From positions 394,315 through 458,314 of the forward strand of contig BCKE01000023.1 of NCBI GenBank assembly GCA_001600495.1: a DNA stretch of 64,000 bases, written 5' to 3'. Source of the DNA: Pilasporangium apinafurcum (lineage: Eukaryota > Oomycota > Peronosporomycetes > Pythiales > Pythiaceae). Position numbers and translations under genes: made by a program. How positions within the stretch are numbered: the first letter of the stretch is position 1; each line of letters begins with the position of its first letter. This document shows, one piece after another, positions 2,878 through 46,098 of the stretch. The notes below the pieces were generated by a model, which saw nothing but the letters and a program-made list of their open reading frames with translations, did not search any database and was not told the origin of the DNA.

Positions 2878-5800
2878 ATGCTGTCCGAGGCAGACAAAGA
2901 GCGGTGGCAGACCATTGCGGCAGCCATCTCCTCGGGGTTGTCGCTGATAGGATCGATGTACATGCTTGGTCGTTATTGGTATGTGCGACGTATGGTGGCC
3001 AAGTCTCCGTCACTCTCGTCGCTACATAACTTGGAAATCACCAAGGAATTAGTTTGCGTGCTGGCTTGGCTGGTAAGACCGATATATAAAAAGCACAGAA
3101 AATGGGATGGATTAACCCAGTGTGTTGAGTAAGCATGAGGGCTGATCGGATGATTCGGGCTTGTTGTTTAGGATTTTATTAACGCTATTGCACGCATTTT
3201 GGGACCATTCCCAGCGAAAACATTTGATCAAAATAAAGGAGAGCCTGTAACTAATATATGCAAGGTTCAAGCGTTTGGTAAGTGGTAATTGCACGGGTTT
3301 AAGCTTGATGTGTAAATGCACTCACGATTCATGGAAGAATAGGTTATTTTTTTGGTGTGGTAACTAATGTCTATGAATTTGGGTCATTTCGCAGTGATTA
3401 CCTTTGGAGATGGCGCTTTGGTAGCGTGGAATCTTGCGTTGTCTTTCCATTTATTTCGTTGGGTATGCGTGGGGGAGGATCAGCGTACGCTGCATAAACG
3501 AATCAAGTGGTATATTTTTTACACTGGAGCGGCTGGATTTATTGTTCCAATTGTTGCACTTGCATGTGAGTGTACTTATATATACTGCTTGATGAAATCA
3601 CTTGTGAGCTCGCATCGTGCTTATTCATAAATTTCTTTGCTTGTAGATGGCAAGTTTGGAGACGCGGTGATCTGGTGCTGGATTGTAACTCCAAATAATC
3701 GGACAGTGGATCTTTGGTGGAAACTTGGTGCTCTCTATATTTGGGTTATTCTCGCAGCAATTGTCATGATCGTGCTTATGGTTCTCGTCACGATTGACCT
3801 CAAGAAACGATTACAAAGCTATGAAAATGAGGACGCGCGAGAAGCCTACAATGCAGTCGTGCGCAATATGACGCTATATATCGTGGGATATATTGTGTGC
3901 TGGATCCCAGCGATTGTCAATCGTGCTAATTCAGCTATCACGGGCCATGATTCATTTGTGTTAGCAATGTTTCACACATCGATAGTGACGCTACAGGGAT
4001 TTGTAAATGCTGTGATTTATGGCAAATTTCATATCTGGGTTGGTCGTCACATGCGTGCGGCTGATGGATCACGCATGAACGAAAAGCATAGCAGCAAGCC
4101 ATCGCGTGATCCTCAGCTCAAGAACTCGGTCAGTGAAGCAGAAGAACGACATCATAGGGGCACGGCTTCGATTTTTATCACAACCTTTGACATGAGCTGG
4201 AATACTTTTCCGTCTAATTTGGTACGAAAACTAAAATACGTTGATCGACATGGATTGTTCACTGAAAAATTTGGCTCGTGATAGGATGATTGGATTCCAC
4301 CGAAGAAAGATTTGTACGTTTTTTCGCTCCAACACTGTATTGATGTACAACAAGTTGAGCAGTCTATCCAGAAATATTTATTACGTGTCAACTACCCAAC
4401 TGCATATCGATCGATCATGTCTCTTGCTGGAAGCGCGTTTCGTGGTCAGACTCAAAATGTACGTCGTTACGTTGTCATCAATAGTTTGACTCCTTTGTTG
4501 CATTCATTCAGCTTTTTTATTCATCAACGTTGTCTAGGCTTCCGTGTGCCAAATACTGTTCGTGAACAACGCAGATGATGCGAGCGGTAATTTCCAATTT
4601 CACGCAGTCGATGGCCGCATGTGGGCTCAGCGCAAAACATTCAAGGAAGTGGCCGGTATACCAATTCGGTATTTCGACGCATCAATGGCATTTGTATCAT
4701 GTGATCTTGCCCCACGGCATCGAGCACATGAAACGAGAAATGATATAACTGCAAAACACTCGACCTCTACAAAATTGATCCATTCGTTTGGGATGGATGC
4801 TGACAATGCAATTGTTGACTTCCCAAACTTATATCATCATACATTCCTTTCGGGAAATCTGAACTACGATGTACGTATGTCCAAGCCGGCGCTGGCAGCT
4901 GCAATTGATCAGGCGTATAAAGCGGAGTGTCTGAAAAGGGCAACCGATTCGGCAATTGAATCAAAACTGAAAACAATACGTGAAACGCGACTTGAGAAAA
5001 ATAATTTAGATCAAAATGCACGCCCAAGATATCCGCGAGCTCTTCATCAAGACAATTTGAGCGTACCCGTCAACTGGAATCTTTTATACCTCAAAAGTCA
5101 AGATTCTCTTGGGAGAAGCAGCGAGTCAACTTCATCAACAGTTGATGATATAATATATAGAGAAGTCTATTCATCGTCGACTGACGATCTCCCATTTACG
5201 CTGTTGGAGTCTCCATCAGCATCCTTGTCAACCTACGATAATAATGAAATGGATTTCAAGGATTCAACTTTAGCAGATATCGAAAGTGTTAATGGCGAAT
5301 TCAGTCGAATTTTCGATGATCATTCAATTGCAATCAATGAATCTGATCATCAACGTGGCGAGAACGAGTCACCAAAAGGTAGACGATCGTGGACATCGTT
5401 TTTGAGCAATTTATTCCCACCGGAATTGGGAACCAAGCATGTTGCTCAACTTTCGATTAGTGGCCGTCGCTTTGGTGCGAATGAAAGAGCGAATTCGAAT
5501 GGTAACACTCGGGCTGGTAACAAAAGGATCAGTGATTTACTACTAAGGTCTCAGGTTGTGGCTGAGAATAGCGCTGCGAAGTGGAAAAACTTGCTACGAT
5601 TTGATGAGTTGCATGCAGCCATTGAAGCAAAAGAAGTGTTTTGTGGCTTTGAAGAACCGCCCATTCAGTTTCTACCGTCATATCCTCGTCGTGTTGGTGC
5701 AGGTGCTTCATTTGCTATTGTTACTGAGCGTTCATGCAAAGATTTATTCGTCGATATGAGCTTTGATCCATCAAAACCAAGTCAGTCTCCAGCCTACAAG

Positions 5801-6871
5801 GGTCGTATTTTGGCGCATTCACTACAAGATACGAGGCAACGCATACGGAACATTGGATACTGGCTTTGTGAAGAAATAGTGACGTCTTCCCACATGCCCG
5901 TCTGCAGTTTGTACGAATTGGAAATCGATCGCTTTTTTGCGTACAAGATGGCGCAAACTGCTGTCTTTGATACGAAAGATACGTTACGAGACAAAATCGG
6001 TGTGCGTGAGTTCAAAATTAAATTGGTGAATCTCGATGCAAACATCTGGACTTACGTTGCTGAACAACGTGGTATCTTCTCGTACCATTCCTCACGCACA
6101 GGAATGCGCCATGGTGTAGTAGAATACCCGGAGTCTATGGTAGCATATGGTAGAGAAGAATATCCGCGAAATTATGATTCAAGCTCAAGCAGTAGTGAAG
6201 AGTCCATGTCCAGTCGGCGCTCACTTGTAGCAAGCGGCAAACATCGATCCTTGTCCAAAGTTATGAGTCGAATATTCAGCAAAGATCGCTCCGAGCCAAT
6301 GGGCTCGAGCGTCTCAAGAACAACCACTCCAACTTTGTACTCTGATTTTACAACCGGCTCTGGAGATTCACGTGATTTGACTTTAACCGATGATCAGTTC
6401 TCCTCGCTTTCTCCGACTCATCTAGAGTTGGCACCAGTCAAGCCGCTGAATATCGCCACCGTGTTTCCTCTACCTTCTGAAGATGTGTATTCGCTTCAAC
6501 GGAAGATGTACGAAGTTGCCCACTTTGTGCAAAATGGGTTTCAGTCTAGTACGATAAACGAAGAAATCGAAGAATCCCAGCTCGCATATACCAACTTTCG
6601 AACGGTGCCGTGGAAAGAAGCAAGTCGAAGTGGGGTGGCGCATTCTGCAGTAACAATGCCTGTCAATGGTGGCGTTCATATCGCCATTACCATCGAAGCA
6701 GAGAATGGTCACGGTGGTCAAGGTGTGCTTTGTATTCGAGAGGAAGACATCGTAAGCCATGTAGCACAAGGGATCAATGACGTTCAACCCATTCCGTTTG
6801 ATGTGACGTTGACATGGGGAGGAAAGCATGTCGGATATTTGCATGGCGGTATTCTTGCTTGCGTCATTTAG
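2878..6871 (+). CDS. GPCR fused to inositol 5-phosphatase-like domain (GPCR-bigram), catalytically degenerate
   Basis: Six exons: 2878-3072, 3172-3277, 3395-3565, 3647-4221, 4285-4458, 4538-6871. All splice sites are GT-AG and the frame closes exactly (1184 aa). Seven hydrophobic helices lie at about residues 18-37, 58-76, 108-127, 139-158, 183-207, 230-255 and 266-286. An inositol polyphosphate 5-phosphatase fold then starts at ASIFITTFDM (about 331). Family landmarks follow in order: WIPPKKDLYVFSLQHC, RYFDASMAFVSCDLA, FLSGNLNYD, AYKGRIL, GYWLCEEIVTSSHMPVCSLY. The catalytic positions are changed: Asn to Asp339, Glu to His366, His to Asp463, Asp to Asn514 in GDLN, Asp to Gly829 in CDR, Asp to Ser858 in SDH. 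A Ser-rich linker and an unassigned C-terminal domain of about 140 aa complete the protein. The family would couple an extracellular signal to phosphoinositide turnover at a membrane; here the domain may only bind lipid or protein. Fusion and motif loss are read directly; the function is inference. Confidence 0.88.
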
Positions 6872-8122: not shown

Positions 8123-8183
8123 AAATCCTTATCACCAACAACACAAACCAGTGAGCCGATCAAGACAAGAAACATCAGTAAGC

Positions 8184-11100
8184 ATGAAGACAAACAGCGT
8201 GGCTCAGCTTCAGGCTGCTTTCAATGGTCGCATTGTGAAGTTCACAGGCGAAGAATCTCCCTTCATGGAGATTAGATGCCCACACACGGTGCTCTACCCA
8301 ACCTCGGAGGCGGATTTGATCATCGCATTGCAGCTAGCACATACTATACAACAGCCCATGCGAATACAGAGCGGCAGCCACTTCACGTATCCGGTCACTG
8401 ACTTTCACGACGGTATTGTCATCAATCTCCAACAGTTTTTTGCGAATATCAAAATTAACGCAGATGCGGAGACAGTGGTAGTCGGAGCTGCAGTGACGAC
8501 AGCGCAATTGGCACAAATGCTAGCAAACCATAACCGCTTCTTGCCGCTCGACGAAAATCCTGTGCTGAGTGTGCTCGCAGATGTAGCCACGTCCAAGAAC
8601 CGTCGGAGTGCCGCATCACTCAAGCGCCACGTGCAGTCGATCCGTGTCATATCCTTCAAGAATTTTCAGCCCAGAACTCTCTTCCCGAATGACGAGTTAT
8701 TCCAAAAGTTATTGAAAGGGGAAACTACCATTTCCTCTTCAGCGATAGTTGTAGCCATGACTCTCTCGACTGCTTTGGCTGAAGGGCAAACACCATGGCT
8801 GAGTAAGTGGGAGTTACCTTACGCAGGTGACTCGCTGGATGAACTGCTTGACCTGCTATTCGCATACAACTGGTCGGCTGCTGTCGATTTGTCTGTCAAA
8901 GTGGCCATGAACAGTCATTTCACGCCCTATCTCTTCGTGAGATTAGCGGGCAGTAAGTACAACGAACAATTAATGGCGAAAAAAGTAGTAAACGCTGCAA
9001 TTGACCAAGTCATACTGCGTGGTCATGAACAACCACTTCTCAACCAACAAGACTTCAACACACCCGGTGCTGTTGTTGCTGCGTGGGTTTCTTCGGGCTT
9101 AGGCGGTGGTAACGAACACGAGGAGCCGTGTACCAAATTCGAGCAGTCTTTCATTCGCAAACAAGCCGAGAATACGCATCATGGTGGACTCATCGGCTTC
9201 TTGCAGTGGTTCACAGAAATCACGGCTATTTGTTACCCGAACCGACCGAGCGGGTCGGTGAGAACGATCAGTGCTGGGCCACCAAGCAAATCCAAACAGC
9301 CATCATTCGATCGGGAAATTACTAAGAAGTTTGCAGATGCTGTGACGTTTGCGTTGGGTCCTGATAGTGCCGCCTATGGTACACGTGGCTCAGCGGAGCT
9401 GACATTGACGTGTGACAACCTGGTCCAGACTACGGTGCATCTGTTCAAGTACTGGCAACAACATGAACACGACCGCCAGGCGTTTGACAAGATGAGTAGT
9501 GTTTTGCCGGAAATCGTCCCAAGAATGCCCAGCAAACTTAAGGATGGTGAAGTATCACCACCTCCATCTTCGACTTCCACATGGTGTTCAGATCTGTCGA
9601 TATCGCCTCCATCTTCATTATCTTCCTCCCCTGTGGATGTGACCAGCGACCGTGTATTTAATGTAAACGACTATAAAAGCCAGGCTGCGATACCAAATTT
9701 TCGAGGCGATATTATTGTCAAGGCAGCGATGATCAAGAACAACAATATGGCCGAATACCGTCGACATGCCGACCAGTACGCGACGTCTTCGTTGACCGAA
9801 CAAGAAATCCAGCAGCGCATGTCTCCTAACATGATTGCTTATCCAACGGATACACAAGATGTGAGTACTGCTATTCAATTCGCCAAGCAAATCGGCAAGA
9901 AGATTGTCGCACGTAGTGGAGGTCATCAATACTGCGGCTTATCTTCAGGTGGAGATGACACAATCCTGCTCAGTATGGACGCGTTCAACACCATCACGAT
10001 CGAGGGCGAACGCGCAACGGTTGGTGTTGGTTGTCTGCTCAAGGATGTCTCAGCCAAACTCAAGGCATGCGGCATGACAGTTCCGCATGGCGAATGCCCA
10101 CGCGTGGCGATCGGTGGGCATATCCAAACGGGCGGTTTTGGTCATTTGTTGACCACCTACGGCCTCCTGATGGATCGTGTGCATGCGCTGAAGATTGTGA
10201 CTGCCGATGGAATTGAGCGAACGCTCGTTCGACCTCGGGCTGACTGCAAGAAAGATGCTGATGGAGAGCTGTTCGCCGCAGTACTGGGTGGCGGGCCCGG
10301 TAGTTTTGGTGTACTCACTGAGATTGTACTTGATTGTATTCAAGATTTCCCTGCATATGGCTACCAGGCCCCGATCTTCTACCAAAAGAAAGTGTTCCTC
10401 GCGGCAATGAAGGAAATGCAGAGGTTTACGCGCATGGTTGCGAGCGACAACCCACCTGAGGGTATTGATTTCGGACTGACTGTAGGCTCCGGTCACACAC
10501 AAGCAACAATCGTCGACGGCGAGTGTGTTGTGCCCAACGTCGTGGTGCTTGAATTCCTCGATATCAAAGCCGCTGATGCTGATGGTAATCGCAATCTGAA
10601 TGGCCCAAACCAGCAATTTATCCAGAGTGTAATCAAGAATGTCATGGAAGAGAAGTCATTCTGGAATATTAGCAAACCGGTATACGATGCCATGCTGCCG
10701 CTTTCAACGATTACGGCCTCAATCATAAGACGTGAGGGTGTCATGACCACCTTAAATGGACGCGAGTTTGCATTCCCATACAAGAAACGGCTCAACTGTT
10801 CCAAAAAGCCACTCAGCGACGCTTTTGTGACAAAGTTTGTTGACCTTGTCGATGAAACTATGGGCATGGGGCTGAATGTGATTTTTCAGTGTGGCACGGG
10901 TGGTGGACCATTCGCGAAGCCAAAGAACCCGACAAGCACAATGCAACAGCACCGTGATACCTTGGTCTACATTATGTTTGATATTTTTTACCCACCAGGA
11001 TACGAAGAGATGGCGCTCGCGCAGCAAGTCAAGATGCGCAAGTTGCTCAAGTATTTCAGCGATGGTGAGGATATTCGTCTGTTCTGGGGGACATATGCCG

Positions 11101-11255
11101 AGAACAGTGATCCCAGTGAACTACATATTGAAAATGTAGTGGAAAAGTACTACAATGATCGTGAGACTTATCGTCGCATCCAGCAAATCAAGCAGCGGGT
11201 TGATCCAGGCAACGTATTCAGCACCTCCTTTACAGTGCAATTACCTCGTTCATAA
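8184..11255 (+). CDS. Berberine-bridge-type FAD-linked oxidoreductase with duplicated FAD module
   Basis: 1023 aa, single exon, ATG at 8184 (upstream frame only via GTG). The second half is a complete FAD-PCMH/BBE protein. ARSGGHQYCGLSSG holds the expected flavin-linking His (about residue 581). GECPRVAIGGH holds the matching Cys (about 638), so bicovalent FAD is plausible. The BBE C-terminus is present as YYNDRETYRRIQQIKQ then DPGNVFS. The first 440 residues repeat the same fold weakly: VLYPTSEADLIIALQLA, MRIQSGSHFTY and IVINLQQF align to the FAD-binding start, but no Cys-containing GGH/GGG motif follows. A Ser/Pro-rich linker joins the halves. The family oxidises alcohols, sugars or alkaloids with O2; the substrate is unknown here. 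No signal peptide is apparent, so it is probably intracellular. Confidence 0.85.
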   Translation: MKTNSVAQLQAAFNGRIVKFTGEESPFMEIRCPHTVLYPTSEADLIIALQLAHTIQQPMRIQSGSHFTYPVTDFHDGIVINLQQFFANIKINADAETVVVGAAVTTAQLAQMLANHNRFLPLDENPVLSVLADVATSKNRRSAASLKRHVQSIRVISFKNFQPRTLFPNDELFQKLLKGETTISSSAIVVAMTLSTALAEGQTPWLSKWELPYAGDSLDELLDLLFAYNWSAAVDLSVKVAMNSHFTPYLFVRLAGSKYNEQLMAKKVVNAAIDQVILRGHEQPLLNQQDFNTPGAVVAAWVSSGLGGGNEHEEPCTKFEQSFIRKQAENTHHGGLIGFLQWFTEITAICYPNRPSGSVRTISAGPPSKSKQPSFDREITKKFADAVTFALGPDSAAYGTRGSAELTLTCDNLVQTTVHLFKYWQQHEHDRQAFDKMSSVLPEIVPRMPSKLKDGEVSPPPSSTSTWCSDLSISPPSSLSSSPVDVTSDRVFNVNDYKSQAAIPNFRGDIIVKAAMIKNNNMAEYRRHADQYATSSLTEQEIQQRMSPNMIAYPTDTQDVSTAIQFAKQIGKKIVARSGGHQYCGLSSGGDDTILLSMDAFNTITIEGERATVGVGCLLKDVSAKLKACGMTVPHGECPRVAIGGHIQTGGFGHLLTTYGLLMDRVHALKIVTADGIERTLVRPRADCKKDADGELFAAVLGGGPGSFGVLTEIVLDCIQDFPAYGYQAPIFYQKKVFLAAMKEMQRFTRMVASDNPPEGIDFGLTVGSGHTQATIVDGECVVPNVVVLEFLDIKAADADGNRNLNGPNQQFIQSVIKNVMEEKSFWNISKPVYDAMLPLSTITASIIRREGVMTTLNGREFAFPYKKRLNCSKKPLSDAFVTKFVDLVDETMGMGLNVIFQCGTGGGPFAKPKNPTSTMQQHRDTLVYIMFDIFYPPGYEEMALAQQVKMRKLLKYFSDGEDIRLFWGTYAENSDPSELHIENVVEKYYNDRETYRRIQQIKQRVDPGNVFSTSFTVQLPRS

Positions 11256-12079
11256 AGTACAGACCACGATTATCTTCATATAACGATGTGAATTTTGATG
11301 TTTTTCCGCTATCTATGTAAACAAATAACAGCAACAAAAATATGATCTGCATTAGAACCATATTTATTCAGGATATTTGGTGCCTTTTACGATAACGTGT
11401 ATATTTCAAAGTATCTATCCCTCGTTTGAAAAGCAAGTGTTCCAAACAACGATTTATTATAGAATTCTCTCTGGATCAAACCTGGAGTCAATTTCAGAGC
11501 CTGTAAAGTAACAACAGTTCCAACAGGTAATCAGTAGATAATCTTCAAGTCCTTTCCCCTTTCGTGCTTTTGCTGTCTCTCTGTTAATACACGGTCAATA
11601 TCGCTACTACAGGTATTGATCTTGTCAAACAGTATTGCTCGCGTGACCACGGTTCTGCGAAAGTTCGTGAAGGTGCAGCTGATTTACCAATGTCATGACA
11701 AACATTAATACCATACACTATACCGCTGAATATCGTGTACGACTATTCCAGCTCTCATTCACAACGTTCCAGTCTCCACAGCATTCAACCAGTCCAGTAT
11801 ATTATACACACTACATGAACAAGTCGTTTCAAGGACTTTCATCGTATCAAATGGAGATGACCAAGCGGGACAGATGTATGGAGCAATGACATGATATACC
11901 GCATTATGATGCTGCACAAATGTCATTATGGTGTCCCTGATTTTATGAGTTCCATTTCCCTAATTTAAAACCGTTTGTACCCAAAATTTGCTGGCATCGA
12001 ACAGACAACATTCGGCAGAGTGACTTGCTGCACAGCGTTAGCTGTTGAGGATAAACAGCAACGCCAGTGCATCAATAGA
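11256..12079. other. Intergenic stretch, nothing recognised
   Basis: About 820 bases of AT-leaning DNA. Short open frames (for example 11695-11889) have no recognisable features. No repeat family seen elsewhere in the window matches here. Confidence 0.45.
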
Positions 12080-13789
12080 ATGAGCGATTCTTCCTCCGTG
12101 TTCACGCGTGTCTGCGTCGTGTGTCGACAGCGAACGGCGGTGGCAGCGTTGCCTCATGTCTCCCGCAACATCGATGGATTTCTCGATCGATCCATCCACA
12201 TGACTATCCTTCAAGCCGCAAAATACGATTCCATGGACCTTTTGTATCGCATTGCTGCAAGAGAAAGCATGCAGTGGCCGCCCCGTCTCTTGCGATGCTA
12301 CCGTTCCAAGGATGTAGATTATGCTATGTGGGTGATGGTACGTCGAGGCTTTTTAGCAGGTGCACGATGGCTCCATGACAGCTACTGCCCGGACAGCGAA
12401 CTCTACTATCTTCTGCTAAGTGTGGCTACCAAATATGGTCATGCTGATATCGTAGCATGGTTTCTTGGTATATTATCGATCAGTGCGGAAGGTGTATTTA
12501 CCATTGTCACGACAGCCATCAAGTATGGGTTTCCAGAGGTGTTACAAGTGATGTGGGACCAAAACAAACATGAGATGCTCACAAAGAACCAGATCGATTA
12601 TATTAATGAAGCTGTTGCATGTAAATACTTATCGGTCGCTCAATTTCTACATGCTCGCTTCCCACAATTTGTGTGGCGGCATTCGATGGAAGTTGTGGGA
12701 ATTGAGGGAAATTTGGAATTGATACGTTGGCTTCATACCCACTCGTTGGCGCCAATCCCCAGCAACATGTTTACTATCGGTGCATCCAGAGGTCATTTGC
12801 ATCTTCTCAATTACTTGTACGAAAACCACAGGGAACTTGCTCCAGCCACGAATATGTTGATGAACAATGCAATGTCAAATGGATACCGTGACGTACTCGA
12901 ATGGCTTTATTCCAATCGACAAAATGAGGAGGAGACGTACAAACCACTGTGGGGATGGCATGTCCGATCCGAGCGAAGTATCGAGATTTCTAATGAGTTC
13001 TGGGAGGTCTGCAAATGGCTACACATCCATCAGTATAACTGTCCCTCAAATTTCATCATGATTGCGGCTGAATGTGAGAACGTTGCGATGCTCCAATGGA
13101 TCTATGATCGGTATCCTTGGTTGTTTGAATCTGATTTGAGATTGCGATTCTCCTCGTACGATCGGCTAGATGTGATTCAGTGGCTTCACGAGAAAGGACT
13201 TTCCATTGGCAGCAATGCCGTGCAATACGCTTCAGCGATGGGACATGTGCCTATCGTCAAGTGGTTCATGGAAAATAAACCTCAGGACTGCAGTGAACGA
13301 TGTGTACGAGCGGCAGTGGAGGAAGGGCGATTGGCGGTTGTCAAGTTGTTTTTTGAGTGGCGTCCTGAGCTTTGCGGCGGATATGCGATTGGACGGGCGG
13401 TAGTGAGGGGTTATTTGGATATTGTCAAGTTTCTCCATGAGAAGAACGTCGAAGGATGGACTGTCGACATAATGGACTGTGCTGCTGTTTTCAGCGGAAG
13501 TCTTGCGATAGTACAATTTTTACATGAACACAGAACCGAAGGCTGTACAACAGACGCCATGGACTCTACATTAAGTGTCGAAATTCTTGAATTTCTGCAT
13601 CGTAATCGGACAGAAGGGTGTACACAGAAAGCGTTTATCAATGCTGCTAGAGAGGGCCACCTGAAGGTGTTGGAGTGGCTTTATCAGCATAAGCGTGAAT
13701 TATTTGATATAGAGCTTGTTCGAGCAACCGGTCGGGAGCATCAACATATTTTGTATTGGTTGGATGCTGTTGAAGCTGGTGAAGTTTGA
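12080..13789 (+). CDS. Ankyrin-repeat-like protein, family copy 1
   Basis: 569 aa from the ATG at 12080, single exon. It starts with the family's N-terminal module: FTRVCVVCRQRTAVAALPHV, then a helix pair, then a 'Y-R-x-x-x-F/Y-x-x-A-M-x-V-M' segment (CYRSKDVDYAMWVMVRRGFL). The rest is a run of about twelve 30-35-residue helical units of ankyrin type, such as SRGHLHLLNYLYENHRELAP, MGHVPIVKWFMENKPQ and REGHLKVLEWLYQHKRELFD. Many units end in 'FLH' or 'WLY' rather than the canonical TPLH, so standard profiles may score poorly. Related copies lie at 24.0, 27.2-29.0, 29.2, 56.8-58.4 and 61.4 kb. The function is presumably protein binding; no catalytic domain, signal peptide or membrane helix is visible. 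Confidence 0.8.
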   Translation: MSDSSSVFTRVCVVCRQRTAVAALPHVSRNIDGFLDRSIHMTILQAAKYDSMDLLYRIAARESMQWPPRLLRCYRSKDVDYAMWVMVRRGFLAGARWLHDSYCPDSELYYLLLSVATKYGHADIVAWFLGILSISAEGVFTIVTTAIKYGFPEVLQVMWDQNKHEMLTKNQIDYINEAVACKYLSVAQFLHARFPQFVWRHSMEVVGIEGNLELIRWLHTHSLAPIPSNMFTIGASRGHLHLLNYLYENHRELAPATNMLMNNAMSNGYRDVLEWLYSNRQNEEETYKPLWGWHVRSERSIEISNEFWEVCKWLHIHQYNCPSNFIMIAAECENVAMLQWIYDRYPWLFESDLRLRFSSYDRLDVIQWLHEKGLSIGSNAVQYASAMGHVPIVKWFMENKPQDCSERCVRAAVEEGRLAVVKLFFEWRPELCGGYAIGRAVVRGYLDIVKFLHEKNVEGWTVDIMDCAAVFSGSLAIVQFLHEHRTEGCTTDAMDSTLSVEILEFLHRNRTEGCTQKAFINAAREGHLKVLEWLYQHKRELFDIELVRATGREHQHILYWLDAVEAGEV

Positions 13790-14339
13790 TGGTAAATAGT
13801 TACAAAAATAAAAATCATTCTGAAAATTGGCGTGTACATTTTGTCGCACCTGTACTTTTCAAAGTTATCAATCACTAATTTGATGTTTCCTGATACGTAC
13901 AGATATCCACAGGACGAAACTGAGGCTACATTGAAGAATGTAATCACAATCTCACAAAGAGATTTGCTTCCAGTTCTATCTGGAATGGTACCACAAGCCT
14001 TTGGGTGTCGTCTATTCTGAATGCAATGATGTGGATCCATTTATTGTGTAATGAGGCATAAAACGTGAGTGATGGTCTATTGAAACCATAAACGAATGCT
14101 TTAAATGATAAGATACACTAGTATACAAATTTCAAGTAAATTTTTTAGCTCCCATGTTTTTTACTGAATAAAACAAATGCGGCCGGAGGCCACCGCACTT
14201 TGGGTCAAGCGTCAGGGTCAATTACATTTGCTCCGCGAGTTGACTTTCAGTGCATCTGCCACATTCTTCAAGCTGCACCCACGCGCGCAATTCCTTCTAC
14301 TCTTCCGCTTCTTTTCACTTAGATCGGCCGCTGTGCGTG
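13790..14339. other. Intergenic stretch, no gene seen
   Basis: About 550 bases between two plus-strand genes. The 14177-14339 part is open in the frame of the downstream gene only from non-ATG codons and is probably its 5' leader and promoter. Confidence 0.45.
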
Positions 14340-17300
14340 ATGACACGGCGCGCACCATCACGCTCCAGTAGTTCAGAAAATGCGATAGTGGAGCAGTCAA
14401 CATCTGCGTCTTCTCAAATGCCATATCGTAAGCAGAGTAGCTTTCGTGGTGGTGGAGGAGCCAAGCATACGAAGCAGAGTGGTAGTTCTCGCCGTCATCG
14501 TGGTCATTCAGCCCCGGGAACACTGTCAGAAAAGGAAATCCAAAATAAGATTCATAGTAGTAACCTGCAGTTGACACTATCGCTACAGTTGGATCTTGAA
14601 AATACTCAATTATCTAAGCTCGTGCAACAGTTCGTGGTGACTTTTAATGGTGATGAAAATGGCGAAAGAAAACGACCAGAGGCGAAGAAAAGTGCTAAGA
14701 AAGCTGTAGTGACAACACAAGTGCTGGAAACGCGGTTACCGTTACTGGTGTGTGGATTGGAGAACTGGGAGGAGCTCATCGAGTTTCAACGTGTTGTCGC
14801 GAGTCTGAAGCGACCAGTCTGTATATCCAACGATATTAATGTGGAAGATAAATTAAAGTGCAAGACAACGGTACAGACACTTTCCAATGGGAAAGAACAT
14901 AACTATCTCTTGGGCTTTACGCACGAGACGGAGGATTTGATGTGGACGTTCACGAATAATGTCATTTTGCGGCTGCGAAGCATCGGAATATATGCTCGAT
15001 CGCTCTTACACGATCGACAGCTCGTTACACCATTAGCATCGGTATACACAAAGAACGCCAATGGAGTTAAAAATGTCGATTCTTCAATGTTTCGCTGGGA
15101 TGGCGAGTTGTCTTTGAGCCACATTACCGTCCTACGAGATATCCAAGAGTCATCGATGACTATCCAAACGATGTATTTACCATCTTTTTCATCTCCGGCC
15201 GTTGATCGGATGTATAATTCGAAATTGTTTCCTCTCGTTGAAGAAATGATTCAAGCTTTGTCGGCATCAAACAAACACCAAGTCGTGATTTTGCGCGGTA
15301 TTCCGGGCAGTGGGAAGAGTTCGTTAGGACGTGCGATTCAAGCGATCTCTCGTGCTCGAAATGTGACTTGCACAATTTGTTCGGCTGATTTGTACTTTGA
15401 AACACCTCGAGGGTACCAATTTGTTGTGGAGAAGCTCAGACACGCGCACGAGTTCTGTAAGCGCACATTTGCAAATGCTTTGGCTTGCGATCGACCACAG
15501 ATCGTAGTTGTCGATAATACACATACGCAAAAGTGGGAATGGGAACAATACGAAAATTTGGCCCAGCAAAGCGATTGCCCCGTAAAGGTCCTGGAAATGA
15601 CATGTCCAGATGTAATGACCGCCATCCAGATGGCCAAGCGCAATTCACACGGGGTGGCTGTTGAAAAAGTAGTCCAAATGTTTCTACGATGGGAGGCTGA
15701 TGCTCATGCGATATCTTTCACGCCCCAGTTTGAGTATCCACTAGTTAACAAGAACCCCATAAGCCACAAGGCGATGAGTGCTGTGTCATATGTCGGACTT
15801 TTTTTGGATCAGGCAGAAAGGAAGAAGCTGCTCGATGTGATCAGTCCCATTCATTCAAATGTGCTTGCAGAACACGTGACGCTCTACTACAAACCGCCAA
15901 AGCAATTTCTTCGGTATGTGCAGATTGGCGGTGAATATACTGTGAAATTACTGGAGGTAGTACAAAACCAACGAGGGCAAACCATTCATGTAGCCCTAGA
16001 TGATCGACTCGACTTAGCAGTCGGCAATCGAATTCCACACATTACACTATCAATGGCTCACAACGTGAGTGCATACTATTCCAATGAACTGCTTCAAGAT
16101 AAATCCGCCAGCCGCACTCCGATCGAGCTACTCACCAATAGCAAACGCGAAATTAATGTGAACCTTCGTTTAGGAGTATCTCTTGTCATCCAGAACCAGC
16201 GTTCAGAAACGGTTACGTCTCCATTCACATCCTCAGATACTTGCTGCTCGCGACTTGACACTGCACGGAAAGAAAAAAATGAACCAGCTCCAGATGGAGT
16301 CCTTCCTACAATCACCAATCTGTTCGTGTTGTATTTGGATATGAGCGATTTGGAAGAAGTAATGCTTCAAAGGTCTGAAGGTGATCAACCTAAGCGATAC
16401 GTAGAATCGGTTGTACATTTCCAGGAGCAAATTGAACACCACGCCGGGTCTTCATGCCGAACTCGCCGTATTTTGTTTGTACAATCCAATACCAGCTCGC
16501 AACGATTGTCCACTACAGAGATATTAAACTATTTGCACCAGTTATGCCTGCCTTCTCCTGTACAACGTTTTACCTTCGACCAAGTGCTTATTGTCCCTGA
16601 AGTTCATGCTCGCGAAAGCTTTGATGAGATGCTGAAAATGGAAGCACAGGCGAGTGATTCTGCAAGAGGTGTGACCAGAATTAAACAGGTCACTTTGTTA
16701 ACGGGATCAAGTAGTCCAATGGGATGGCGACTGCTTGATGGCGAAAGTCTCCACCATATTACCTTGAACGTGATCCGCTTGGACTTTCCTCACCAGAGAG
16801 AGCCACTTTCAGAAGTACTGGGAGTGGACACTTCGAATCTTAGCCTGTTGTTCGATCACCTCGGCATTAGTATCAATGAGCATCCGCGGCATCTAATTAT
16901 TCGCGGTATAGATGTTGTTCGAAACGCCTGCAGGCGTATTTTCGGAGTTGATCGATGTAATGTTTCGACTGTCCAACGCATAGATACCACCATTACAGGG
17001 CTAGAGTCGGACATAGTCGATCTTTGTGTTTTGCTGCCAGCGAACTTATCTGAGAATACCCGGGAAGAGTTGAAGCACAATCTGGTTACCGCTATGAGAG
17101 ATGACGGTGTCTGCCATGTCGCCTCTAAGGGCTGTGATGGCTTCTACTTCACTGTTTGTTCGCTCACAAGCTACTCACCGATTTTCCGAGTCGAATTGGT
17201 CGAATCATCGACAAATGGCACACTGGATTCATTATCGCGATCAAGCGTAACTATGAAACGTTTAGAGTTTATCATGACCCAGCGACAAAATGTACGGAAG

Positions 17301-18107
17301 CTCTGCGATGATGATACATACGCAATACTTTCGGCATGGCTTCGATCAGTCCTTCGTGCGCGACTACTGCCTGTTGCAAACGCATCATATCTATCCGTGT
17401 TTGCGAATTTGATGAGTGAACGCCTCGTACTGCTCTTTCTGCAATCCAGAGCGTCTGCCGGAAGTTCCTTCGATACCTCTGAACGCAAAGGGTTACCGAC
17501 ATCGCACGAGCTGATGTTTAATATTGTTACACTACTTGAATACCTTCGCGATCGGTCAAGCGAGGAATGGCATCAAGAGTTCGATTATGTACAGCGGGTA
17601 CTACGGATTGATGCATATAATCCGTCTGAACTTGAGCGATTACCCACACTTATCCGTGCAGTATTCAATCAAGTACATTCATTGCAGTCGCGATATAATG
17701 TTGATGACGTACCGGATCTTGCACGTGTGATGCTGGATCTTATACAGCCTAGCAAAGTTGCGTGGCGAGACGAGTACAGTGTTAATGACAAGACCCACAA
17801 ATTTCAGATGATGTACGTGGAAATCAGCGAAAGCATTGACCGGTTTGGTTGTCACCAGTTGTGCGATATGCTGTATGACGCAGCGCAGAGAGTGATTGTG
17901 AATCCTGAGACTGAAATGTTCTTTTGTGCACCCAGTCGAATAAGTAACCGCGTTGAGATTGCCGTTGAGTCGAGTCAGCTTCTTGCGAAGATTTTAAACG
18001 AGTTGAAGGCATCCAGAACCATATCATATCGTCATAGTCTGTGTGAAATCGATTGCAATCGACTGATGATTCGACACTGCCATGACGATGCAAGAGTACA
18101 GTTATAG
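14340..18107 (+). CDS. Polynucleotide kinase / 2H-phosphoesterase protein (N4BP2/tRNA-ligase-like)
   Basis: 1255 aa, single exon, ATG at 14340. After a basic Ser-rich head lies an unassigned domain (about 75-290), then a P-loop kinase. Its Walker A is RGIPGSGKSS (about 320), followed by CSADLYFE, LRHAHEFCKRTFANAL, IVVVDNTHTQKWEWEQY and MAKRNSHGV, as in the PNK-like kinases of N4BP2 and the kinase part of tRNA ligases. A 2H-phosphoesterase-like domain follows with both HxTx motifs: EHVTLYYKPP (His512) and PHITLSMAHN (His567). Together these could phosphorylate 5'-OH ends and open 2',3'-cyclic phosphates in RNA repair. No nucleotidyl-transferase ligase motif (KxDG) is seen. The remaining 600 residues are unassigned, including a helical C-terminus. 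It ends convergent with the INPP4-like gene. Domain calls come from motifs; the reaction is inferred. Confidence 0.75.
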   Translation: MTRRAPSRSSSSENAIVEQSTSASSQMPYRKQSSFRGGGGAKHTKQSGSSRRHRGHSAPGTLSEKEIQNKIHSSNLQLTLSLQLDLENTQLSKLVQQFVVTFNGDENGERKRPEAKKSAKKAVVTTQVLETRLPLLVCGLENWEELIEFQRVVASLKRPVCISNDINVEDKLKCKTTVQTLSNGKEHNYLLGFTHETEDLMWTFTNNVILRLRSIGIYARSLLHDRQLVTPLASVYTKNANGVKNVDSSMFRWDGELSLSHITVLRDIQESSMTIQTMYLPSFSSPAVDRMYNSKLFPLVEEMIQALSASNKHQVVILRGIPGSGKSSLGRAIQAISRARNVTCTICSADLYFETPRGYQFVVEKLRHAHEFCKRTFANALACDRPQIVVVDNTHTQKWEWEQYENLAQQSDCPVKVLEMTCPDVMTAIQMAKRNSHGVAVEKVVQMFLRWEADAHAISFTPQFEYPLVNKNPISHKAMSAVSYVGLFLDQAERKKLLDVISPIHSNVLAEHVTLYYKPPKQFLRYVQIGGEYTVKLLEVVQNQRGQTIHVALDDRLDLAVGNRIPHITLSMAHNVSAYYSNELLQDKSASRTPIELLTNSKREINVNLRLGVSLVIQNQRSETVTSPFTSSDTCCSRLDTARKEKNEPAPDGVLPTITNLFVLYLDMSDLEEVMLQRSEGDQPKRYVESVVHFQEQIEHHAGSSCRTRRILFVQSNTSSQRLSTTEILNYLHQLCLPSPVQRFTFDQVLIVPEVHARESFDEMLKMEAQASDSARGVTRIKQVTLLTGSSSPMGWRLLDGESLHHITLNVIRLDFPHQREPLSEVLGVDTSNLSLLFDHLGISINEHPRHLIIRGIDVVRNACRRIFGVDRCNVSTVQRIDTTITGLESDIVDLCVLLPANLSENTREELKHNLVTAMRDDGVCHVASKGCDGFYFTVCSLTSYSPIFRVELVESSTNGTLDSLSRSSVTMKRLEFIMTQRQNVRKLCDDDTYAILSAWLRSVLRARLLPVANASYLSVFANLMSERLVLLFLQSRASAGSSFDTSERKGLPTSHELMFNIVTLLEYLRDRSSEEWHQEFDYVQRVLRIDAYNPSELERLPTLIRAVFNQVHSLQSRYNVDDVPDLARVMLDLIQPSKVAWRDEYSVNDKTHKFQMMYVEISESIDRFGCHQLCDMLYDAAQRVIVNPETEMFFCAPSRISNRVEIAVESSQLLAKILNELKASRTISYRHSLCEIDCNRLMIRHCHDDARVQL

Positions 18108-18460: not shown

Positions 18461-21400
18461 TTAGGAGTCTCGTGCTGTGACGGACGTCACCATATCCTGG
18501 ATGGTACTCATCGGCGGGCGATAAATCTCGGGCAAGAGCTTCCTTTGGATAGAGTTGAACGAATACTTGTAGCGACCAACGTTCTTCTTGGCGATTTCCA
18601 TGCGCACACCGAATTCACGCATGATATTCGCAACTTCTTTGACCTCCTCCAGTGGTCCATACTCGCTCGCACCCCCCAATTCGATTTCCTGTAACACATG
18701 GCGCTTACGCTGAACCAACAGCCGCGCTTGTTCTAACGTCGCGCTCATGGCCGTGCGATCTTTGCCAGATTTACAAAACGTCACACGCCCGCCATTTAAA
18801 CTTCGAACGGCGTCCGCAGCATGGAGCAGGATGCAGGTGTTCTTCGAGGCTGAATTCTCGCCTTCTACTGTAACGCGTAGGTTGCGTAGGATCTCGTCTG
18901 GGTGGGAGCCGACACTTGTTTCAGACATCCCCACACCACAAGTGGTAAACTTGTTGTAGTACTCCACAATCGACCGGAAGCTCGTGCTATTGATCTTCGA
19001 CTGTATAGAAACCCCGGAATGACCGACAATGTTGGCGAGGCTCTGCATCTCATTAATGCCTTGTGTGAAAAGCACCGACGTGATGGAAATCAAGCCGCCG
19101 TGTTGAAGCGTCTCAGGAAGAATAGCAAACTGGGCAGGTGGAACTGGTACTTTGATCGTATATCCCACATGCTCCCGCTTTTCCAGGATCACTTCAGAGG
19201 ATGATGCACTTTCGTGTAGCTGAAAGGCGAACGTTTCCAAGCATTTGATAGCAACCCATGCATCGGAAAGCATGCGAAGCTCCTTGCCATGAGAAGAAAT
19301 CAGGCTTTCCCAACCAATCAAGAAGCCGATTTGCGCCATCTGATCCAATACTTTCAGATTGTGCTCTTGCAGACACAAGTCCAGTTCCGCAACGAAGCAA
19401 GTGACAAGACTACTCACAGACTGCGATACTGCGACACTCTTTCGCAAGTAGTAGTCGGTGCGTAGCATTTCGAGTCGACTCAGGATTCGAACAGCGTAGT
19501 TGATAGAAGTCAGGGGATCCACGCCTTCGTCTGGCTCAGTCTTAAGCGGTGGATACTTAGTTTCGACGACCATAGCATTGTCATCACTCTCTTGGCTGGA
19601 CAGATGTTTAGATAGTTTCTTGGCAGGCAAGCGTTTTTTTGCAGTAGCTCTAGCCCCAGCAACTGCCCGCGCAGCAATCTTCGAGTATTTCTTATTCAGC
19701 GTTTTCTTGGGGGCCGGTTTCGCACCGTCACTCTTAGGGCTGAGCGAAGTGTCGGGTGCTGATACTTCTGAAGTTGATACAACTTCTTCAGAGTTAGATT
19801 CTTCTTCAAAATCAACCAGCTCATCTTCCAAAGAACCAAATGAATGTTCCATTGAATCTTCCGATACAAACTTTGCATTATCTCCAACAGTACTAGTTAC
19901 CATGTGTGGAGTGCATTTGTCCAATATTCCCTGCAGCCGATGAATCTCCAACTCCATTTCTCGAAGTCCGTTCTCCGAAAGTCCCATTGCATGCGCAGTC
20001 GGTGCTCCACAAGTTATTGTGCAATGCGTTTCTGGCAGCATCGCACGCTGCTGCAAGGACTGATACGTCGCAGATATTGATGAAGGTAGTGTTGCATGAG
20101 CATTAGAGTACCCCAATCCCAGCAAATCCTCTGTTGATGCCCCCTGGTTCAGCGGTGGTGGAGCATCGCTGAGTCGTAACGGTTGTGACCCAAAATTTCG
20201 ATAAATACGAAAGTAGGAGACGTGCAAATTGGTTGGGATACCCTGAATATCGGCGCGTTTCTTGTGCTGGCTTGACTTGAAGGTTTTGTTCTGAAGAATC
20301 AAATTTTCTGTCAATCGGATCATATCGGTCACTTGTGCAATCTGTTTCTGAAGATTGAGTGCATGCGGGTAGAGGAAATTTAGTGGCATTTCATTTTCCA
20401 AGTGGCTTCCAGTGGAAGGAGCTGCACAATCTGCCTCAAGACGAAAACGGCGTGGCTCGTCTGCCGCTTTTTGTATATTTGCTGAACCGTCGGATGGTGG
20501 GAGTGGATTTGCCAGTAAAATATTCAATCGAAGCTGAATTTGGCCAAAGGTTTCATCGCTGGTTGGTGATCGAACGTCGAACCAATCCACAAGTGTCAGC
20601 GATGTCACGCACTGGGACGTTCGAACGGAATATTCATCGTCCTCATCATCATACACAATTTTTTCTTCCACAGTCATGGCATCTCGTACGCTTTGCAACG
20701 GGATCATTACTTCACCAACCAGATCATTTTCAAGTCCAGTCATGTACCCATAGCTCTCGTTGAATAATTCGAACCGTAGCCACCCCGTCAGCTCACGACT
20801 GGGACTTTGCAAAATGCTAGGTCGATAGAACACGAATTGCTTCAAATTATTCACCGGTGAAATTTCGATGCGACTGGGCAACGCAGGTGACACATGTAAC
20901 TTCGTACTGGGTTTCGCATGGGGGCATTTTGTGGTAGCAAACTCGTTTGTAGACCAAACTGGATTCGGTGTGTCATACTCTGTGTTTGTTTTCCCCACAA
21001 GATGTTCATGCGGTCCATTCAAATTGTCGGAATATCTCACTACGACAAACGGATTAATGCCTCCTCCACTGCTAGTATTACCATTACTGCTACTGGATCC
21101 AGCACTACTGGTTTGGGTATTCCATTTTCCAGCCTGCGACTTAAGTCGATTCATAATTCCTCCACGTCCACCGACTGAAAAAGAAGATGGTCGTACGGAA
21201 CCAGGCAACATACTATCAAAAGCAGTCCCACTACTGCTTGAGCTCGTGACCAAATTCCGTCCACAGATCACTTGCACGCGATACACGTCATGTCCAAAGT
21301 TGAGCGCTTCAGTGTCATCTTCAAAGTGGCGATTCTTCTTTCGATTGTAATTGTACCGCAATTTCCACTCGTCGTACATCTGTTGCAATTCATACTGACA

Positions 21401-22405
21401 GACCCGCAATAGCTGCAGAGGTATCTTCACACTGAAATCAACTTCAGTCGCTTCTTCAATTGCAAGCTTCGCACCAGTTGCTTGTACTCTCTCCTGGTCT
21501 TCCGGCATCAAAGGCAAAAACAGGAAACTCCGAAAAATGCTGTGGTGTTCGTGGAACAACGGATGTGGTTGCGGGTGGATGTTGGCAAATCGGATGACGA
21601 CAGTCGCACCATCCATGACCGATGAGTGCACAGGTAGTGTCATCTTTTGCTGAAAATTACCACTGGTAGCAATCGTGTACATCTCCTGAAATGATGTCTG
21701 TGCGTATCCAAATACTTGACTATTCTTATTGGAATGCGAATTTTCATCCGGGATCATAATTAAAATCTGAATATGCCGGTCATAAGCAGCAGGCGATCGA
21801 CAATGCACATTAAATCCCATAGCAAATTGCGGATTTCGGCTGCGTCGACGTTCACTCCAGTAACTTTCACGATCGAGAATGCCTGGGTCTGGCAATTGAG
21901 CCTTGTCGGGAAAAATAGCGCCATTGAGTGTTGTACCTAAAGGTGCTGGTGGAGGTTGCAGCATGTCCGCATTCACAAGAGTATTACTATTTGCATCATC
22001 ATTCTCAAACGCTGGTAGTTCTCTCGACACTCGTACTTCTACATTCACATCCGTGGCAGCTTTGGTTCTCGGTGATTTGCTGCTCGAGTTGGCCTGCGTC
22101 AACATACTCAGCGCACCCCGCACAAATGTCTGTGCTGATCGCGACGCTGGCGCCACAAGGCTGCCGTCGATTCCCGTACAGGACACGAAGAAGTGAAGCA
22201 TATGACGCTCGACCACTTGCCCCTTAGTCGTGGATGATTGCACCGATGGGACAGATGATGATGATGATGATGGAGGGGAAGTGGTCGAATTCGGGGTCGT
22301 TTCTGTATAGAAATCTGGGAAAACACCACTCTCCATGGGCACAACAGGCATGGAGGCCACTGGAGAGTCCCCGAAATCAATCAGATCACCCATAGCAGCC
22401 GACAT
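18461..22405 (-). CDS. Inositol polyphosphate 4-phosphatase (INPP4-like)
   Basis: 1314 aa, single exon; ATG at 22405, with a second possible start four codons on (MGDLIDFG). The catalytic CX5R loop is VTFCKSGKDRTAMSATLEQ, with Cys about 1211. INPP4 enzymes have CKSAKDRT, so only one small Ala-to-Gly change is seen and activity is likely. Upstream is a helical region typical of INPP4 (INYAVRILSRLEMLRTDYYL; LHAADAVRSLNGGRVTF). A C2-like domain lies at about 375-580 (YRVQVICGRNLV, NPFVVVRYSDN, NTEYDTPNPVWSTNEF). The first 350 residues have further beta-rich, possibly C2-like sequence. The linker at about 885-975 is acidic then Lys/Ala-rich (KKTLNKKYSKIAARAVAGAR). The family removes the 4-phosphate of PI(3,4)P2 on endomembranes. 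Length exceeds the animal enzymes (about 900-980 aa). Confidence 0.88.
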   Translation of the reverse strand: MSAAMGDLIDFGDSPVASMPVVPMESGVFPDFYTETTPNSTTSPPSSSSSSVPSVQSSTTKGQVVERHMLHFFVSCTGIDGSLVAPASRSAQTFVRGALSMLTQANSSSKSPRTKAATDVNVEVRVSRELPAFENDDANSNTLVNADMLQPPPAPLGTTLNGAIFPDKAQLPDPGILDRESYWSERRRSRNPQFAMGFNVHCRSPAAYDRHIQILIMIPDENSHSNKNSQVFGYAQTSFQEMYTIATSGNFQQKMTLPVHSSVMDGATVVIRFANIHPQPHPLFHEHHSIFRSFLFLPLMPEDQERVQATGAKLAIEEATEVDFSVKIPLQLLRVCQYELQQMYDEWKLRYNYNRKKNRHFEDDTEALNFGHDVYRVQVICGRNLVTSSSSSGTAFDSMLPGSVRPSSFSVGGRGGIMNRLKSQAGKWNTQTSSAGSSSSNGNTSSGGGINPFVVVRYSDNLNGPHEHLVGKTNTEYDTPNPVWSTNEFATTKCPHAKPSTKLHVSPALPSRIEISPVNNLKQFVFYRPSILQSPSRELTGWLRFELFNESYGYMTGLENDLVGEVMIPLQSVRDAMTVEEKIVYDDEDDEYSVRTSQCVTSLTLVDWFDVRSPTSDETFGQIQLRLNILLANPLPPSDGSANIQKAADEPRRFRLEADCAAPSTGSHLENEMPLNFLYPHALNLQKQIAQVTDMIRLTENLILQNKTFKSSQHKKRADIQGIPTNLHVSYFRIYRNFGSQPLRLSDAPPPLNQGASTEDLLGLGYSNAHATLPSSISATYQSLQQRAMLPETHCTITCGAPTAHAMGLSENGLREMELEIHRLQGILDKCTPHMVTSTVGDNAKFVSEDSMEHSFGSLEDELVDFEEESNSEEVVSTSEVSAPDTSLSPKSDGAKPAPKKTLNKKYSKIAARAVAGARATAKKRLPAKKLSKHLSSQESDDNAMVVETKYPPLKTEPDEGVDPLTSINYAVRILSRLEMLRTDYYLRKSVAVSQSVSSLVTCFVAELDLCLQEHNLKVLDQMAQIGFLIGWESLISSHGKELRMLSDAWVAIKCLETFAFQLHESASSSEVILEKREHVGYTIKVPVPPAQFAILPETLQHGGLISITSVLFTQGINEMQSLANIVGHSGVSIQSKINSTSFRSIVEYYNKFTTCGVGMSETSVGSHPDEILRNLRVTVEGENSASKNTCILLHAADAVRSLNGGRVTFCKSGKDRTAMSATLEQARLLVQRKRHVLQEIELGGASEYGPLEEVKEVANIMREFGVRMEIAKKNVGRYKYSFNSIQRKLLPEIYRPPMSTIQDMVTSVTARDS

Positions 22406-28995: not shown

Positions 28996-29198
28996 TTTTG
29001 ATGTGCTATGTGGATTCGAAATCAAATAATGAGCTATTGAATATTTTGAGATGAAAGCAAGTGAGTGATGGTCATCGAATCTATGTGGCTACATTTTGGA
29101 AAGTGATGTGATGGATATTCCATTGTTACACTTTGGATATCCAGATCTCATGGTTTGTAGTTGTGAAACAAAAGCCAAGAAGAACGATACAGAGAGCA

Positions 29199-45783: not shown

Positions 45784-46098
45784 TCATATGTCTGCGTCGC
45801 TCACTGGGGTAGTATCGGGACCGGATGCCGATGTCGATGCCTCTGTATCGGTATCAGACCCCGATGTCGATTTATCCGATGATTTATCCGATGATTCATC
45901 CGATGGTTTCTGTGTGCTTGGTGTCGGCGTTGGCGTTGGCGTCGGCGTCGGCGTTGGCGTTGGCGTCGGCGTCGGCGTTGGCGTCGGCGTCGGCGTCGGT
46001 GTCTTCGTTGTAGTTTTAGGTGTTGGCGTCGGCGTAGTTGGCCCTTCTTCCGTTGGTGTGGGTGTTGGCGTCGGTGTCTTCGTTGTAGTTTTAGGTGT
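45784..46098 (-). CDS. Thr/Pro-repeat C-terminus of a probable surface protein (partial)
   Basis: Read on the minus strand, this is the 3' end of a frame ending in TGA at 45784-45786. Before it lies a long (Thr-Pro)n run with two KTTTKTPTPTPTPT-type blocks, then STQKPSDESSDKSSDKSTSG and a Ser/Thr/Asp tail. Thr/Pro-rich, probably O-glycosylated spacers of this kind are typical of oomycete wall or secreted proteins. The 5' part lies in the assembly gap. On the plus strand the same DNA reads as a Gly-Val repeat, which I consider the shadow. The N-terminal domain is unknown, and no GPI-like hydrophobic end is visible. Confidence 0.55.
   Translation of the reverse strand, partial: TPKTTTKTPTPTPTPTEEGPTTPTPTPKTTTKTPTPTPTPTPTPTPTPTPTPTPTPTPTPSTQKPSDESSDKSSDKSTSGSDTDTEASTSASGPDTTPVSDADI
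45918..46098. repeat. GGCGTY hexamer tandem repeat
   Basis: About 20 copies of GGCGTT/GGCGTC run from about 45923 to 46000, and shorter runs continue into the gap near 46020-46075. A unit containing GTCTTCGTTGTAGTTTTAGG appears twice (about 46000 and 46078). The repeat probably caused the assembly break. Confidence 0.85.

Follow-up and report, generated by a model that had tools for sequence, protein, structure and literature searches.

A five-gene GPCR-INPP subfamily of Pilasporangium apinafurcum whose conserved 5-phosphatase domain very likely lacks its canonical chemistry

The window analyzed here, a 64,000-nucleotide stretch of the genome of the oomycete Pilasporangium apinafurcum (contig BCKE01000023.1, positions 394,315 to 458,314), carries a gene (positions 2878-6871, forward strand) that joins an N-terminal receptor half to a C-terminal inositol polyphosphate 5-phosphatase domain, as in the oomycete GPCR-INPP bigrams (G-protein-coupled receptor, GPCR; inositol polyphosphate phosphatase, INPP). 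This architecture and the loss of many active-site residues recur in four sister genes of the genome, the phosphatase domain of the group is under purifying selection, and two copies with canonical residues coexist with it. Judging from the residues replaced, 5-phosphatase activity is very likely absent from all five proteins. The window gene probably belongs to a retained pseudo-phosphatase subfamily and is not a decaying copy, because the domain is under strong purifying selection (dN/dS ratio, omega, of 0.09) and is better conserved than the receptor half. The account that we favor, and consider moderately probable, is that the chemistry was lost once, before the five genes diverged, and that the domain would since have been kept in a non-enzymatic role, as an interaction or allosteric module.

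Active-site replacements shared by five genes

The comparison set for the five degenerate genes consisted of seven canonical 5-phosphatases from this genome, namely the GPCR-INPP genes C4 and C22 and five more 5-phosphatase genes with canonical motifs (C64, C89, C1, C61, and C19). Two of the latter five score 271 and 258 bits, and all five were unmatched by a search with the C-terminal module of the bigrams. The C22 model ends where its 3' part became unreliable, the C19 model covers the domain only, and two further loci matching the 5-phosphatase family PF22669 (C42 and C50) were left out, as by eye they resemble other proteins of the endonuclease/exonuclease/phosphatase superfamily. Twenty-six alignment columns are gap-free and invariant in all seven canonical sequences. 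All five genes differ from the canonical residue at ten of these columns (339, 363, 366, 444, 463, 514, 518, 788, 823, and 858 in the numbering of the window protein) and retain it at 15; at one column (829) only the window copy differs.

The replacements affect the WN, QE, CH, GDLNYR, and SDH motifs, all of which are altered in the five genes. At fifteen chosen sites the five genes read DSHKE[DN]NNDY-x-[GD]RSH, and C4 and C22 read NGEKGHDNR[YF]RDRDH. Where an active enzyme is expected to have its Mg ligands, Asn of WN/FN and Glu of QE, the window protein has D339 and H366; GDLNYR has become GNLNYD, with Asn516 retained; for P-x-[WY]-x-D-R the window protein has PAYKGR, against P[AS]YKDR in its four sisters; and SDH is SSH, with His859 retained. 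The individual codons are as follows.

Codon 339 (4189..4191, + strand): Asp for canonical Asn (Synj1 Mg ligand N543 by motif); Asp in 5/5 genes, Asn in 7/7 canonical sequences.
Codon 366 (4333..4335, + strand): His for canonical Glu (Synj1 Mg ligand E591 by motif); His in 5/5 genes, Glu in 7/7 canonical sequences.
Codon 463 (4703..4705, + strand): Asp, with Asn in the four sisters, for canonical His (Synj1 H689 by motif); from the alignment.
Codons 514-518 (4856..4870, + strand): NLNYD for DLNYR, the base changed from Asp to Asn and the phosphate-binding Arg to Asp; N514 and D518 in 5/5 genes, D and R in 7/7 canonical sequences.
Codon 823 (5783..5785, + strand): Gln for canonical Arg (taken as Synj1 R800, a 4-phosphate ligand); Q, L, S, A, and S within the group.
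Codon 829 (5801..5803, + strand): Gly in the window copy only, Asp in each of the four sisters and in 7/7 canonical sequences.
Codons 858-859 (5888..5893, + strand): Ser-His for Asp-His; Asp lost in 5/5 genes, His retained in 5/5.

The original prediction had named Asp339, His366, Asp463, Asn514, Gly829, and Ser858, and each is exactly as claimed. Its wider statement, that every visible catalytic residue is replaced, holds for the canonical Mg ligands, the base, and several phosphate ligands but goes too far, as K443, G513, N516, Y517, R830, S857, and H859 remain, in 5/5 genes. Two changes lie beyond its six, R518D (GDLNYR having become GNLNYD) and the loss of R823. Of the six replacements, those at 339, 366, 514, and 858 are identical in all four sisters, whereas the sisters carry Asn at 463 and Asp at 829.

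The roles of these positions are known from active relatives. In Synj1, N543 and E591 lie next to the Mg ion, D730 serves as the general base, and the water takes its orientation from N732; the 5-phosphate is surrounded by H689, N732, R734, Y784, and H859, the 4-phosphate is held by Y784, K798, and R800, and without Mg the kcat/KM drops by four orders of magnitude (PMC7781601). In SHIP2, the base is D607, the D607A mutant is called catalytically inactive, and K541 contacts the 1-phosphate in a model (PMC5550278). We equated residues 339 with N543, 366 with E591, 463 with H689, 514 with D730, 516 with N732, 518 with R734, 859 with H859, and 823 with R800 by motif position and not by alignment with a Synj1 sequence. 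By these equations, all five proteins appear to have lost the two Mg ligands, the base, and two ligands of the 5-phosphate, and probably one 4-phosphate ligand (823) as well. We infer the loss of activity from the loss of Mg ligands, base, and phosphate ligands, given the effect of Mg removal on Synj1 and the description of the SHIP2 mutant D607A as inactive.

The register of the alignment draws on several comparisons. The best solved relatives of the five-gene profile are INPP5E (2xsw, E 2.4e-07), SHIP2, and INPP5B, mainly over the C-terminal half of the domain, which aligns well with PDB 2xsw and SHIP2 chains. The N-terminal half takes the same register against PDB chains, but with just 2.9, 1.7, and 4.2 bits. 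For residues 339-518 the register comes from profile-profile alignment, with E 5.7e-37 against C4 and C22 and E 5.3e-16 against the five other enzymes of the genome; the latter alignment has a gap at 443-444, a site that rests on C4 and C22.

Alternative exons restoring the motifs, which the original prediction had named as a possible refutation, are ruled out for 463, 514, 829, and 858, all four codons lying within one 2334-base exon; they are also unlikely because the four sisters, with sequences of their own, show most of the same changes. Outside the coding frame, a scan of the three forward-strand frames for the motif patterns returned only short QEC and SSHIP matches, at chance level.

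Gene structure, family members, and selection

The intact frame of 1184 codons predicted for the window gene is borne out, with six exons, five GT..AG introns of 99, 117, 81, 63, and 79 bases in phases 0, 1, 1, 0, and 0, and no internal stop. Spliced profile alignment gave identical exon boundaries, although not independently, as the profile contained the window protein; this alignment and the register obtained from PDB and profile comparison rule out a misread frame or a chance resemblance. The Pfam family Dicty_CAR matches amino acids (aa) 92-282 with 42.3 bits (Pfam cut-off 21), and the hydropathy segments expected of an N-terminal seven-transmembrane (7TM) receptor fall within aa 12-281, where the number of helices is not cleanly resolved. 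PF22669 matches with 56.6 bits (Pfam cut-off 27), its best stretch being aa 735-863, and this match and that to PDB 2xsw mark the C-terminal domain as a homolog of inositol polyphosphate 5-phosphatases. The protein is organized as follows.

2878-3072, 3172-3277, 3395-3565, 3647-4221, 4285-4458, and 4538-6871 (+ strand): exons of the whole GPCR-INPP gene, 1184 aa; intron phases common to the four paralogues.
2878..4074 (+ strand, introns included): receptor half, aa 1-300, cAMP-receptor-like 7TM, from Dicty_CAR and hydropathy; omega 0.137.
4159..4921 (+ strand, introns included): N-terminal half of the 5-phosphatase domain, aa 329-535, with replaced residues 339, 363, 366, 444, 463, 514, and 518; omega 0.093.
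4922..5521 (+ strand): long insert of variable sequence, aa 536-735, that splits the phosphatase domain; 30/146 gap-free columns invariant, omega 0.277.
5522..5941 (+ strand): C-terminal half of the 5-phosphatase domain, aa 736-875, with PF22669 and PDB matches; omega 0.092.
6437..6865 (+ strand): C-terminal conserved module, aa 1041-1183, common to the seven GPCR-INPP genes found; omega 0.070.

Neither PDB, searched up to E 10, nor Pfam at its family cut-offs yields a match for the segment aa 865-1184, and the one Pfam match of the C-terminal module (E 0.068, in 1/5 members) was taken as chance.

A search of the assembly (36.5 Mb, 136 contigs) with the C-terminal module revealed at least seven GPCR-INPP genes: the window gene, four on contig C31, C4, and C22. 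The C31 genes form a tandem array of full-length copies (C31:174500-194300) with a degenerate active site almost identical to that of the window gene. All four were fully modeled, with the five introns and phases of the window gene and no internal stops, and their proteins are 59-64% identical to the window protein; in C31d, an ATG is present one codon upstream of the first-modeled start. C4 and C22 have the same layout but retain the canonical 5-phosphatase residues, which are missing in five of the seven genes found (the window gene and the C31 array), and their PF22669 scores are 140.6 and 126.4 bits, respectively, versus 56.6 bits for the window gene. Dicty_CAR matches C4 with 30.6 bits; C22 has no receptor family at Pfam E 0.1, and its receptor half was assigned from alignment and hydropathy.

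Selection was estimated with a GY94-type codon model (F3x4) over the gap-free columns of the five genes, on a star tree because relations within the five are unsupported; synonymous sites are near saturation, which makes omega approximate. The phosphatase core (347 codons) has an omega of 0.093 across the five paralogues, well below 1 (twice the log-likelihood difference, 2dlnL, of 788 versus omega 1); the window branch has 0.091 and the other branches have 0.094 (2dlnL 0.01). Omega is 0.070 in the C-terminal module, and it rises from 0.137 in the receptor through 0.174 in the linker to 0.277 in the insert. Invariant gap-free columns number 130/207 and 85/140 in the two phosphatase halves, 90/143 in the C-terminal module, 128/298 in the receptor, and 30/146 in the insert, the phosphatase domain being more conserved than the receptor half. 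At seven of the eight shared invariant replacements (339, 363, 366, 514, 518, 788, and 858) the codon varies synonymously while the replaced residue stays fixed; codon 444 shows no such variation. The five genes thus have both an intact, selectively maintained reading frame and catalytic residues missing alike across relatives (10/26 columns, 5/5 genes, one genome), as expected of pseudoenzymes.

The view that the protein is maintained while its canonical chemistry is very probably gone finds support in the omega of the core, its equality on the window branch, and the synonymous-only codon variation. Relatives with intact motifs, which the original prediction had counted against itself if this copy proved a pseudogene, do exist as the paralogues C4 and C22, but the window copy is no pseudogene, given its intact frame and core omega.

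In a tree with the seven canonical proteins, the split of the five genes has support of 100/100 and a branch length of 1.49, whereas the branching order among the five is poorly supported (bootstrap 20-40) and the pairing of C4 with C22 is weak (29/63). The simplest account of this history is one ancestral loss of chemistry followed by duplications, with position 463 changing from His to Asn and then to Asp, and with Asp829 lost in the window copy alone.

Several other features of the window were recorded. About 12 kb from the bigram, a 1314-aa open reading frame (ORF; 18464-22405, - strand) has a weak C2 domain and a CKSGKDRT motif near its end; we take it to resemble inositol polyphosphate 4-phosphatases, and it is possibly a further phosphoinositide gene. 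A single 1034-aa ORF (8151-11255, + strand), apparently a fused double oxidase, contains a berberine-bridge domain and two stretches of FAD_binding_4, and in the ORF at 14250-18107 (+ strand) a fungal tRNA-ligase phosphodiesterase domain is joined to an AAA_33 domain. Similar repeats of the WLHE/WLYEH type occur in three ORFs (11975-13789, + strand; 27238-29025, - strand; 56793-58433, - strand), which make up a putative single ankyrin-like family. At ~46095-46990, a stretch of N (translated as X) lies inside listed ORFs and adjoins a simple GV repeat.

Possible roles of the retained domain

Under the reading that we favor, a ligand would be sensed by the receptor half and the resulting receptor conformation passed to the cytosolic pseudo-phosphatase, which would act as an interaction or allosteric module. 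Its targets may be the two active-looking GPCR-INPPs or the phosphoinositide kinases of the same cell, in the way that inactive myotubularins act on active ones; the window copy would have gone one step further by losing the Asp of its DR motif. Matches to phosphatidylinositol phosphate (PIP) kinases are abundant in the genome (25 exon-wise, with 19 candidates scored), so that possible partners of this kind exist, their link to the pseudo-phosphatase bigrams being conjectural. In a bolder version, which we regard as speculative and doubtful, the five-gene subfamily, which outnumbers its catalytic sisters (five of the seven genes found), would signal via a pseudo-5-phosphatase in which the Mg site, the base, and the phosphate-clamping residues were exchanged once for a fixed set, Asp339, His366, Asn514, Asp518, and Ser858. 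This set would form a new metal or ligand pocket, or else an allosteric docking surface through which the active GPCR-INPPs and the PIP kinases are controlled.

A number of observations weigh against a maintained, non-enzymatic module. Not all ten changed columns are catalytic (T788S, for example, is conservative), and the conservation of these ten does not significantly exceed that of the remaining core (8/10 vs 192/321, P 0.33). The omega values come from near-saturated synonymous divergence and a star tree and are correspondingly approximate, and outside the phosphatase core the window branch tends to exceed its sisters: 0.208 versus 0.124 in the receptor (2dlnL 3.87, marginal), 0.482 versus 0.244 in the insert (2dlnL 2.42), 0.233 versus 0.163 in the linker (2dlnL 0.32), and 0.103 versus 0.063 in the C-terminal module (2dlnL 1.04). 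The fold of the domain is supported by sequence only, as single-sequence AlphaFold2 predictions of exon 6 alone (777 aa, mean pLDDT 34.4) and of the C-terminal module alone (145 aa, 40.9) were both useless. The retained K443, N516, R830, and H859 may leave some room for ligand binding, the exchange of Asn and Glu for Asp and His at the metal site may leave room for a new metal, and the proposed protein-partner role is no more than plausible. In prokaryote and virus contig collections, the five-gene alignment gave 29 and 198 pattern matches, none of them relatives by tblastn, and absence there means little.

The suggestion that the tail could serve as a phosphoinositide sensor comes out weakened. 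A domain that binds the head group of a phosphoinositide or inositol phosphate without metal, rather unlikely in our estimate, would account for the retention in all five proteins of K443 (SHIP2 K541 by motif) and the three residues just named with it, and for the canonical-invariant columns as a whole being more conserved than the rest of the core (23/26 vs 192/321, P 0.003). This excess is not significant for the ten changed columns alone, however, and the presumed counterparts of the Synj1 5- and 4-phosphate ligands H689, R734, and R800 are lost, with R518 turned acidic. An interaction or allosteric role fits better than a sensor because R518 and R823 are lost. We judge it unlikely that the protein is an ordinary G-protein-coupled receptor in which the inactive tail matters only for how the protein folds, how stable it is, or where it is located (cf. 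model E proposed by van den Hoogen and Govers): purifying selection on the receptor half (omega 0.137) agrees with this, and G-protein signaling has been put forward for bigrams with an inactive domain (PMC6033456), but a tail domain more conserved than the receptor half is not predicted for a passive tail.

That the active site has been rewired, with Asp339, His366, and Asp518 forming a new metal or acid-base site for a different chemistry, seems quite improbable. The Mg pair would still comprise one carboxylate and one neutral ligand in all five proteins, Asp518 is new and invariant, and N516 and H859 remain; yet all five have lost the catalytic base and the Asp of SDH, and in the window copy the Asp of DR is missing as well. 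It is this last loss, private to the window copy, together with the higher omega point estimates of its branch outside the phosphatase core (up to 2dlnL 3.87, in the receptor), that could point to a decaying duplicate. We reject this reading as very improbable on the intact frame of 1184 codons and five introns and a core omega (0.091) equal to that of the sisters, even though the receptor half of the window copy is marginally faster.

Known systems and implications

The window gene has PF22669, the order of motifs, and matches to solved structures in common with the 5-phosphatases SHIP2, INPP5B, INPP5E, OCRL, and Synj1; unlike in these, its domain has altered motifs and is split by a long insert. 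Receptor tyrosine phosphatases with an inactive second domain are likewise transmembrane receptors that carry a pseudo-phosphatase domain, with an unrelated fold, a single membrane pass, and an active domain in the same chain. The inactive myotubularins MTMR5 and MTMR13 are likewise inactive phosphoinositide phosphatases beside active relatives; their fold and chemistry are unrelated to those of 5-phosphatases, and they are not receptor-fused. MTMR5 and MTMR13 interact with active MTMR2 (PMC6737944); a comparable partner binding by the product of the window gene is putative.

Oomycete GPCR-INPP bigrams have been published (van den Hoogen et al, 2018; PMC5784254): P. infestans has seven, and the numbers in other oomycetes range from one to nine. 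They have the same N-terminal receptor and C-terminal inositol polyphosphate phosphatase as the genes described here, and the seven found here equal the P. infestans number. The class is described there by predicted catalytic activity of the accessory domain, a property that C4 and C22 have and the window gene lacks. Five of our seven genes are without the canonical catalytic residues. The main text of that article contains no word starting with "pseudo" or "inactive". A review of GPCR-bigrams treats the activity of the tail as an open question and offers ordinary G-protein signaling for an inactive one (PMC6033456), and the main text of a review of pseudophosphatases (PMC8269279) does not contain "5-phosphatase" or "synaptojanin". 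Among the papers listed by searches of the literature on oomycete GPCR-bigrams, pseudophosphatases, and pseudoenzymes, a scope outside which most subscription papers and preprints lie, no title or abstract opening describes a loss of 5-phosphatase chemistry in GPCR-INPPs. The accessible text of another article reports no robust INPP5 homologs in the oomycetes it examined (PMC9694693), a statement that may not hold generally, given the putative 5-phosphatases C64, C89, C1, C61, and C19.

The current view of GPCR-bigrams is that they link a receptor directly to an enzyme. The genome of P. apinafurcum offers a built-in comparison, in which two active-looking tails stand against five where the residues for the known chemistry are missing despite strong selection. 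If the reading that we favor is true, these five genes would provide a receptor-bound pseudo-enzyme of the 5-phosphatase family, which is without precedent among the papers that the literature searches listed. Many GPCR-INPPs would then not be phosphatases, and the phosphorylation cycle proposed for GPCR-PIPK (PIP kinase) and GPCR-INPP bigrams (PMC5784254) would need revision for these members.

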